Positions 36,955-39,362 of a DNA stretch of 64,000 nt are shown here, piece after piece. Position 1 is the stretch's first letter; each line of letters opens with the position of its first letter. The DNA is taken from assembly GCF_000013385.1 (NCBI RefSeq), contig NC_007760.1, positions 4,934,001 to 4,998,000 of the forward strand, read 5' to 3'. The notes under the pieces were generated by a model. That model was not told where the DNA came from. It saw nothing but the letters and a program-made list of their open reading frames with translations, and did not search any database. The DNA is from Anaeromyxobacter dehalogenans 2CP-C. Its GTDB lineage: Bacteria; Myxococcota; Myxococcia; Myxococcales; Anaeromyxobacteraceae. The position numbers were made by a program, and so were the translations under genes.

Positions 36955-38955
36955 CTACCCGCCCAGCCACCAGCGCCGGGCCTCCTCCACGGTGCGGAGC
37001 AGCGGGCAGCGCGGCAGGGTGGCGAGGAAGGCGCGGCCGTAGCCCTTCGTGACGAGCCGCCGGTCCAGCACCGCCACCAGGCCCCGGTCCTCGCGGGTCC
37101 GCACCAGCCGCCCGAAGCCCTGGCGCAGCGCGAGCGCGGCCGCCGGGACCTGCAGCTCGGAGAAGCCGTCGCGGCCCTGCTCCTCGAGCGCGCGGAGCCG
37201 GGCGGACATCACCGGGTCGCCGGGCGGCGCGAAGGGCAGCCGGTCGATGATGACGAGCGAGAGCGCCTCGCCGGGCACGTCCACGCCCTCCCAGAAGCTC
37301 GCGGTCGCGAACAGGACGCTCGGCTCGGACCGGAACTCGTCGAGCAGCCGCGACTTGGGCCGGTCGCCCTGGCGCAGCACCTGGTACGGCAGGTCGCGAC
37401 AGGCCTCGTGGAACGCGTTCATGTTCCGGTTCGAGGTGCAGAGCACGAAGGCGCGGCCGCCGGTGACGGCGGTGAGCGCGCGGATGGACTCGGCCGCGGC
37501 GCGCACGAACCCGGGGTCGTTCGGCTCGGGCAGCCCCTCCGGCGAGACCAGCGCGGCCTGCCGGGCGTAGTCGAACGGCCCCTCGAACCGGCGCTCCTCC
37601 ACCTCCAGCTCCGGGAGCAGGCCGACCTGCCGGCGGAAGAAGTCGAAGCGCCCCTGCGCGGCGAGCGTGGCGCTCGTGAACACGGCGGTGTCGGTGCGCT
37701 GGTAGAGCCGCTCGCGCAGCTCCTCGGCGACGTCGATGGGCGCGGCCCGCAGGAACACGCCGCGCCCGCGCACCTCGCCGAAGTACACGCGCGACGGCTC
37801 CTTCATGGCGGTGACCGCGGCCACCTCGACCCGCAGCTCGCCGGCGCGCCGGGCGATCTGCGAGAGCGCCGGCGTGACCGCGTCGCCGAGCAGCTCGCGG
37901 AGCCCGGCCAGCGACTCGTCGAGGCGCGAGAGGTCGCGCTGCGCCCCGTCCATCACCGCGGGGGTGAGCGCCGCCTTCACGCCCTCCTCCTCCTCGCCGC
38001 GGCGCCGCCGCGGCGGCGGCCCGAAGCCGCGGCCGCGCGCCGGGGTCCCGCCCTGGCGCAGCCCGTCCGCCACCGCCTGGAAGAACCGCTCGCCGGCCTT
38101 GCGCAGCTCGCCGGTCGTCTCCCGCATCATCGAGGCGAGGTCGGGCCGGTCCGCCACCGCGCGCAGCGCGTCGCGCGACAGCTCCTCCACCCGGTACGAC
38201 GAGACCTGCAGCCCGAAGTACTCGGTGGCGACGTCCTCGACGGCGTGCGCCTCGTCGAAGATCACCACGTCGTGCTCGGGCAGGATCTCGACGCCGGCGC
38301 GCGAGGTGCGCATGGCGAGGTCGGCGAAGAACAGGTGGTGGTTGACGAGCAGGACGTCGGCCTGCGTGGCGAGCGCGCGGGCGCGGGTGACGAAGCACTC
38401 CTCGTAGCGGGCGCACTCGCGCCCGAGGCAGTTCTCGCTGGTGGCCGAGAGGTCCTTCCAGGTGTGGAACTGGTCGGGGAGGTCGATCTCGCTCCGGTCG
38501 CCGGTCTCGGTGCGGCGGGCCCACGCCTCGATGCGCGGCCAGAGCGCCGCCTCGTCGCGCGCCGCGAACGTGGGGGCGCGGGCGAACTCCTCGCCGCGGG
38601 CCAGGCAGAAGTAGTTGGAGCGGCCCTTCAGGTAGGCCGCGCCGAACTCGAGCCCGCAGGCGTCGCGGAGCAGCGGGATGTCCTTCTGCCAGAGCTGCTC
38701 CTGCAGCGTCTTGGTGGCGGTGGAGACGATCACGCGCCGGCCGGAGAGCACCGCCGGCACGAGGTAGGCGAGCGTCTTGCCGGTGCCGGTGCCGGCCTCG
38801 GCCACGAGGTAGCCGCGGCGCTCGATGGCCCGCTCCACCGCGCGCGCCATCTCGAGCTGGTCCTCGCGGTGCTCGTAGCCGGGGAGCGCCGCGGCGAGGC
38901 GTCCGCCGGGCCCGAGGATGGCGTCGAGCGAGGGGTGGGCGGGCAGGGGGATCAG
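36955..38955 (-). CDS. DinG/XPD-type ATP-dependent DNA helicase, probable CTG start
   Basis: The about 666-residue SF2 Fe-S helicase has Walker A AEAGTGTGKTLAY and DEAH box IFDEAHAVEDV. Four cysteines (about 117, 176, 181, 187 in NYFC...ENCLGREC...EEC) fit the 4Fe-4S cluster. C-terminal motifs are VLFATASFWEGVDVPGE and RQGFGRLVRTREDRG. The conserved Q-motif-like YEHREDQLEMA lies upstream of the first ATG (38850), so the start must be earlier. No ATG, GTG or TTG is available in frame. A CTG at 38955 overlaps the preceding stop as CTGA and has GGGAG six bases upstream. The real start is inferred; the ATG-only version would lack 35 residues. Confidence 0.88.
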   Translation of the reverse strand: MIPLPAHPSLDAILGPGGRLAAALPGYEHREDQLEMARAVERAIERRGYLVAEAGTGTGKTLAYLVPAVLSGRRVIVSTATKTLQEQLWQKDIPLLRDACGLEFGAAYLKGRSNYFCLARGEEFARAPTFAARDEAALWPRIEAWARRTETGDRSEIDLPDQFHTWKDLSATSENCLGRECARYEECFVTRARALATQADVLLVNHHLFFADLAMRTSRAGVEILPEHDVVIFDEAHAVEDVATEYFGLQVSSYRVEELSRDALRAVADRPDLASMMRETTGELRKAGERFFQAVADGLRQGGTPARGRGFGPPPRRRRGEEEEGVKAALTPAVMDGAQRDLSRLDESLAGLRELLGDAVTPALSQIARRAGELRVEVAAVTAMKEPSRVYFGEVRGRGVFLRAAPIDVAEELRERLYQRTDTAVFTSATLAAQGRFDFFRRQVGLLPELEVEERRFEGPFDYARQAALVSPEGLPEPNDPGFVRAAAESIRALTAVTGGRAFVLCTSNRNMNAFHEACRDLPYQVLRQGDRPKSRLLDEFRSEPSVLFATASFWEGVDVPGEALSLVIIDRLPFAPPGDPVMSARLRALEEQGRDGFSELQVPAAALALRQGFGRLVRTREDRGLVAVLDRRLVTKGYGRAFLATLPRCPLLRTVEEARRWWLGG

Positions 38956-39362
38956 GACGGGCTCCCGGTGAGCAGGGCGGCGAGGCGGAACGCGGCCCAG
39001 GCGGCCGCGGCGCCGAGGGCGAGGAGCGCGGCGACGACGAGCGCGCGCTGGAGCTTCCCGGCCCGGGGCGGCACGGTGCGCGGCAGCGACGCGAGGCCCT
39101 GGATGGTGGCGCGCTTCACCACCTCGTCGCGGAAGCGCGCGGCGATCGGGTCGCCGGGGCGCTCGGCGAGCACCGCGCGGTAGCGCCCGCCGGCGAGGGC
39201 CAGCCCCTCGAGATCGGCGAAGCGGGCCAGGTACGCCCGGTGCGTGCCCTCGTCGTCCCAGGCCTCGACCACCCGGGCCCAGGCCTCGGCCTCGGCCTCG
39301 GCCTCGACGGGATCGGGCGCGGGCTCCGGTGCGTCCGGGCGCGGGGTCTCGGGGGTGGGCAT
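38952..39362 (-). CDS. Small hypothetical protein with C-terminal transmembrane helix
   Basis: The 136-residue protein is not assignable to a family. Residues 1-25 are Pro/Glu/Ala-rich and acidic. Residues 25-90 look helical, with RYRAVLAERPGDPIAARFRDEV. A single hydrophobic segment (about 106-130, ALVVAALLALGAAAAWAAFRL) suggests a tail-anchored membrane protein. It overlaps the helicase gene by four bases if the latter starts at CTG 38955. The upstream M50 protease gene ends 54 bases away on the same strand. Confidence 0.7.
   Translation of the reverse strand: MPTPETPRPDAPEPAPDPVEAEAEAEAWARVVEAWDDEGTHRAYLARFADLEGLALAGGRYRAVLAERPGDPIAARFRDEVVKRATIQGLASLPRTVPPRAGKLQRALVVAALLALGAAAAWAAFRLAALLTGSPS

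Follow-up and report, generated by a model that had tools for sequence, protein, structure and literature searches.

A probable CTG start codon in a stop-start overlap for a YoaA-like helicase gene of Anaeromyxobacter

The gene for a YoaA-like DNA repair helicase of Anaeromyxobacter dehalogenans 2CP-C, which lies on the minus strand of a 64-kb window (the whole stretch of DNA that was analysed), very probably begins at CTG 38955, and its translation would start by termination-reinitiation aided by a Shine-Dalgarno (SD) sequence (Table 1). This would be a rare but already known kind of start. The four bases CTGA are common to the helicase start and to the stop of the 136-aa gene upstream, and the gap between GGGAG and CTG is six bases (38961-38956), an arrangement that the original prediction had described and that the coordinates reproduce. 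The same prediction held that the frame offers no ATG, GTG or TTG before its first ATG, and that this ATG is tied to a conserved region; both statements proved correct. In the 192 sense codons from the upstream stop to the Walker A motif EAGTGTGKT, the earliest canonical start is ATG 38850, with no ATG, GTG or TTG in the helicase frame between the upstream stop and that codon. It lies 35 codons past the CTG, in frame, and encodes the methionine of QLEMA, within the YEHREDQLEMA sequence that stands just before Walker A. A list of open reading frames permitting ATG, GTG and TTG begins the helicase at this codon with a product of 631 aa, and gene callers restricted to these three codons would place its start 35 codons late.

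Table 1. Features at the helicase start junction of A. dehalogenans 2CP-C, in window coordinates
Feature	Position	Strand	Evidence
CTG proposed to start the YoaA-like helicase	38953..38955	-	CTG at the same place in 7/9 genus genomes
Stop codon TGA of the 136-aa gene, in overlap with CTG (CTGA)	38952..38954	-	Sequence
GGGAG, Shine-Dalgarno-like	38962..38966	-	Sequence; GGAG upstream in 7/7 CTG-bearing genus loci
ATC, codon 2 if CTG is the start; rival AUC initiator	38950..38952	-	ATC in 9/9 genus genomes
First in-frame ATG, within conserved QLEMA; rejected as main start	38848..38850	-	List of open reading frames; YoaA model
YoaA-like SF2 DNA repair helicase, 666 aa counted from CTG	36955..38955	-	NF053712, PF13307, PF06733
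136-aa gene upstream of the helicase	38952..39362	-	Kept in 8/9 genus loci; hydrophobic C-terminal segment

The helicase and the coding signal around its start

The protein had been predicted to be DinG-like, which holds for its motifs and domains but not for its name. The NCBIfam model of the YoaA DNA repair helicase (NF053712) matched with 696 bits against a curated cutoff of 680, over model positions 2-628 of 630, whereas the models of DinG proper stayed below their cutoffs (PRK11747, 384 against 598 bits; PRK08074, 428.7 against 789 bits), so that YoaA is the better name. Beside the Pfam domains PF13307, PF00270 and PF06733, the translation contains EAGTGTGKT (Walker A), DEAH and four cysteines (in NYFC, ENC, REC and EEC). 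A Walker A motif, a DEAH box, a helicase C-terminal domain and four cysteines between the motifs form the set that we take to define XPD/DinG-like helicases; judged from its translation the protein belongs with them, with iron-sulphur binding only predicted. The match to the YoaA model is near full length; the comparison with this family was confined to the start codon, which stood out.

The extent of these alignments bears on the possibility that ATG 38850 is the true start and that the conservation upstream of it has another cause. Counted from CTG, position 2 of the YoaA model aligns at residue 12 and ATG 38850 is residue 36, so a start at the ATG would lose about 24 model positions, along with part of the stretch that matches DinG 6fwr, the best solved relative, whose alignment runs from residue 23. 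A codon-score model trained on the A. dehalogenans genome scored the 34 codons from CTG to ATG at +18.5 nats when read as helicase, versus -23.3 and -59.0 in the two remaining frames; for the 34 codons upstream of CTG, the helicase frame gave -44.0 and that of the 136-aa gene +16.5. The coding frame thus switches around CTGA. Among the nine Anaeromyxobacter genomes, codons -51 to -18 (counted from EAGTGTGKT) contain 11, 10 and 22 variable columns at codon positions 1, 2 and 3, although codons -51 to -45 are too variable to prove coding (4, 4 and 5 of 7). The ATG does have in its favour that it is the first canonical start and that codons -51 to -18 evolve faster than the core: in distant pairs of the genus their nonsynonymous differences exceed the synonymous ones, with 10 versus 5 for the pair L001-L004, compared with 5 versus 13 in the 60 codons from EAGTGTGKT. 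On these counts the N-terminus of the helicase is a fast-evolving region. Nevertheless, both the coding signal and the third-position variability extend upstream of ATG 38850, and there is no ATG at that site in L004 and L008; we regard it as very unlikely to be the true start.

It is similarly hard to credit that the helicase has no separate start and is fused to the 136-aa gene by a -1 frameshift or stop bypass. The helicase frame is indeed open for 140 codons upstream of CTG, but no conserved slippery sequence was seen before the stop, the last codons vary (TCC, AAG, CAT), and the relative L105 has an in-frame TAG.

The junction in the genus and its sister genera

Each of the nine genus genomes gave one helicase match. 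Codon -52 is CTG in L001, L002, L003, L005, L006, L007 and L009, GTG in L004 and TTG in L008, and the codon after it is ATC in 9/9; the junction accordingly reads CTGATC seven times, GTGATC once and TTGATC once, with NTG overlapping TGA in all nine. At this place, then, CTG is conserved or exchanged only with another NTG codon. The comparison of start codons among relatives, which had been suggested together with the claim that CTG is the best start, therefore supports that claim through the constant NTGATC junction, to which are added the coverage of the YoaA model from position 2 and a second CTG in a sister genus (below). A sequencing error that masks a GTG or ATG would need to affect only a single base, but the identical CTG in seven genomes leaves that explanation a negligible chance.

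The exchange of C, G and T at the first base is in itself weak evidence, because any base other than C there yields a canonical start, and for this reason we dropped the GTG/TTG exchange as proof of the CTG start. A midpoint-rooted protein tree with 19 rows and three open forks pairs the GTG row with the TTG row and places this pair within the CTG rows, and CTG therefore looks like the ancestral state in the genus. Two other codons were considered as common starts and rejected: a GTG at codon -40 is present in L004, L008, L009 and several sister loci but is replaced by ATC or GTC in L001-L003 and L005-L007, and a CTG at codon -49 is carried within the genus only by L001-L003.

The gene upstream of the helicase is the same in 8/9 genus loci. 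The context of the ninth, L009 (genome G008), looks broken, with an upstream open reading frame that reads to us like a cut acetolactate synthase and is likely to reflect a deletion or misassembly; since it is unlike the genus neighbour and apparently cut, we rejected L009 as an independent upstream context. The 136-aa gene had no Pfam or NCBIfam match and, from the look of the translations, seemingly also precedes the helicase in several sister loci.

In all, 107 helicase loci were collected, of which 54 misfit the motif and were dropped and 53 were kept. Eight of the 53 have no canonical start in codons -75 to -36, namely L001, L002, L003, L005, L006, L007, L031 (presumed identical with the contig of L003) and L105. 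One sister genus has three loci (L010, L011 and L013) whose junction reads CTG ATG, with the ATG placed where Anaeromyxobacter has ATC; L018, from another genus, has CTG ATG one codon earlier, which brings CTGATG to four loci in two sister genera. The sister loci L014 and L017 have a GTG within a GTGA overlap, at other distances. In L105 (genome G012, of the same genus as L014), an in-frame TAG at codon -54 is followed by CGG AGG CCA CGC CTG AGC, with no canonical start between this TAG and an ATG at codon -17. Its CTG (codon -49) comes six bases after GGAGG, and by-eye alignment places it against GTG AGC in L014. Neither an overlap nor an AUC accounts for the CTG of L105. Because L014 falls outside the Anaeromyxobacter clade in the 19-row tree, from which L105 itself is absent, the CTG start of L105 probably arose independently of the one in Anaeromyxobacter.

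These loci also bear on the main competing codon, the AUC at 38952-38950, which might initiate the helicase after arising from the sister-genus ATG by one G-to-C change. In line with this, L010, L011 and L013 have ATG at that codon, ATC is found in 9/9 genomes of the genus, and its SD spacing is acceptable: in the SD register used for the survey, the spacing, derived manually, is 5 to CTG and 8 to ATC, values that occur in 14 and 10 of 106 cases, respectively, so that we rejected spacing as a judge between the two, both being common. Against it, ATC makes up 99.4% of the isoleucine codons in A. dehalogenans genes picked for GC3 > 0.90, so its constancy tells little; an AUC start is unneeded in the GTG and TTG species; and L105 reads CTG AGC with no AUC present. 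Moreover, among the switches of ancestral start codons reconstructed by Belinky and colleagues (PMC5622118), four lead to CUG and two to AUU, and the word AUC is absent from their text. We therefore consider initiation at AUC unlikely and retain the CTG as the probable start.

Rarity of the start and how it might work

The original prediction had also called CTG initiation rare, and a survey of the genome agreed. It covered the 64-kb window and 20 sampled stretches (464 kb in all) and called 405 genes, of which 30 ran off an end and 375 were screened for coding signal of 6 nats or more ahead of the first canonical start, a threshold that smaller losses escape. Four of the 375 were flagged: trpE (42.5 nats), the YoaA-like helicase (22.0), a weak open reading frame in L118 (14.9) and a gene in L121 (6.7). 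The L118 case was dropped since its whole score, 26.2, barely exceeds the threshold of 25; L121 was dropped for its in-frame TGA, a probable selenocysteine; only the helicase and trpE look credible. The L121 gene (L121:2743-3200; G000:C1:3222743-3223200) is peroxiredoxin-like and carries the TGA in FYTKAFTPG*TREL, which we take to be a probable selenocysteine site.

Among the called genes of the 464 kb, four-base overlaps read GTGA 44 times, ATGA 18 times, TTGA once and CTGA 12 times. In 11 of the 12 CTGA overlaps a canonical start lies 1-11 codons downstream, and the helicase CTGA alone has none before +35; the genome, as far as sampled, thus makes no regular use of CTG starts. The helicase junction shares with the 63 canonical candidates a TGA common to stop and start, and differs from them in its start base, C.

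Switches of ancestral start codons to CUG are likewise scarce, with 2 of 61,358 AUG, 1 of 5,080 GUG and 1 of 2,468 UUG starts given in the part of PMC5622118 available to us, and CUG initiation complexes are described, in the accessible part of PMC11497404, as forming but being less stable than those on AUG, GUG or UUG. Within the literature found on CTG or CUG starts, no report concerned this helicase gene or start codons in Anaeromyxobacter. All 64 codons have reportedly been studied as start codons by Hecht and colleagues in 2017. The helicase start resembles other bacterial CUG starts in the first-position mismatch with the initiator anticodon and in its great rarity, and differs from them in that the CTG is retained in 7/9 genus genomes and that a second CTG start occurs in the same gene of a sister genus.

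From the junction we infer both initiation at CUG and its coupling to the 136-aa gene. A ribosome terminating at the UGA of that gene, or one bound at GGAG, would be positioned over CUGA and initiate at CUG, which the ordinary initiator tRNA would decode to give fMet-Ile-Pro-Leu-Pro-Ala-His. In Escherichia coli, reinitiation has been described at start codons overlapping a stop codon (PMC2268962, accessible part). The geometry for it is present here in the CTGA overlap, in the coding signal that the 136-aa gene keeps in its own frame through its last 34 codons, and in the conservation of that gene in the genus.

The CTG would represent a drifted start. The ATG of CTGATG, the likely start in the sister genus, probably became ATC in the stem of Anaeromyxobacter, and the overlapping NTG would then have taken over. 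The N of this NTG could have been free to become C, as it doubles as the third base of the last codon of the 136-aa gene. Third positions in A. dehalogenans are 51% C and 47% G, in codon shares drawn from genes picked for GC3 > 0.90 that understate rare codons, and C precedes the stop in 48 of 139 genes; C is therefore a natural state of the base before the stop, and CTG may be tolerated rather than selected. A weak start codon would also suit a helicase that is perhaps needed in few copies.

We also asked how far the SD sequence compensates for the CTG. The CTG rows of the genus have GGAG in 7/7 cases, the GTG and TTG rows lack it, and the SD duplex values, for which the anti-SD sequence was assumed since the 16S end was not found in this genome, are -5.8 to -6.8 in the CTG rows and -3.2 and -2.5 in the GTG and TTG rows. 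However, the duplexes of the CTG rows are modest beside those of random 20-mers (median -4.1, best tenth -8.4), the CTGATG loci of the sister genus are as strong (-6.4 to -6.8) without GGAG, and the rows are few and related; the duplex values thus fail to support the SD compensation at which GGAG hints. A broader and doubtful proposal is that the overlap and the SD sequence, rather than the first base, specify the start, such that ATG, GTG, TTG and, in two genera, CTG could all serve. If it is true, CUG would be a stable evolutionary state, and possibly a low-output setting, sensitive to initiation factors, for a repair helicase. A CTG start found in most of a genus, and matched at this junction by GTG or TTG in relatives, is well suited to studying how overlap and SD sequence might together offset a poor start codon.

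A candidate frameshift site before trpE

The top match of the survey, trpE, lies outside the window, and its coding signal extends over 97 codons ahead of the first canonical start (G000, C1:4662253). It was also identified by Pfam, and it is the first trp gene of an operon that we read, judging names from translations, as panD-trpE-G-D-C-F-B-A. At L127:2253-2300 of G000 (C1:4662253-4662300), the panD stop overlaps a short open reading frame, ATG ACG GTG CGT CTT TGG CAA GTC CGC TGA, relative to which trpE is in the +1 frame. trpE was matched in 23 of 24 family genomes; one locus (L150) is cut, leaving 22 complete loci (L128-L149). In all 22 the short frame is present with CTT then TGG, its stop falls on the 2nd to 9th codon past TGG, and CTTTGGC is invariant; ATG ACG GTG NNN CTT TGG (M-T-V-x-L-W) is found in 20, while L142 and L147 hold CTTTGGC in other surroundings. 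CTT makes up 19 of 5,467 leucine codons and TTT 3 of 1,480 phenylalanine codons in reference genes with GC3 > 0.90, in which rare codons are understated; as both are rare, the invariance of CTTTGGC cannot be put down to codon use in either frame.

The shift site of release factor 2 is CUU UGA C. The trpE site has the same form, except that the tryptophan codon UGG replaces the stop. We consider it probable that trpE is expressed by a programmed +1 frameshift at CUU-UGG that senses tryptophan shortage. With ample tryptophan the ribosome would read UGG and terminate soon after, whereas with scarce Trp-tRNA it would pause, CUU would slip to UUU, and the trpE frame would be entered. Were this true, it would be far more interesting than the helicase CTG start, and the missing upstream start codon would have that cause. 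Proteins specific to starvation and made by frameshifting at hungry codons were the subject of the statement "no examples are known" in the accessible part of a 2016 review (PMC5009743). A literature search, beyond whose reach most subscription papers lay, returned no report of such trpE frameshifting.

Reinitiation after the short frame is a possible alternative source of TrpE. Position 0 is GTG or TTG in 7/22 loci and CTG in 8/22, and 18/22 have a canonical codon within 0 to +39, mostly a GTG that sits at +19 to +25 within conserved sequence. Set against this, position 0 is no NTG in the remaining 7/22 (L132, L133, L134, L136, L140, L141 and L144), four loci (L128, L130, L136 and L149) have no canonical codon at 0 to +39, and in every locus the trpE frame is free of canonical starts after the upstream TGA and before position 0. 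Readthrough of that TGA is another possible route into trpE, the codon being in frame in 22/22, but it leaves the invariant CTT TGG unexplained.

No CTTTGG was found upstream of trpE in six loci of family f4 (L168-L173), and other families gave no readable start. Across the order, 145 genomes were scanned for a 14-base form of the motif; 21 carry it, including 17 from this family, compared with six genomes, none in the family, for the reversed control; the four matches outside the family lie on a contig other than that of the trpE-like match, more than 800 kb away from it, or in a genome without a trpE-like match.
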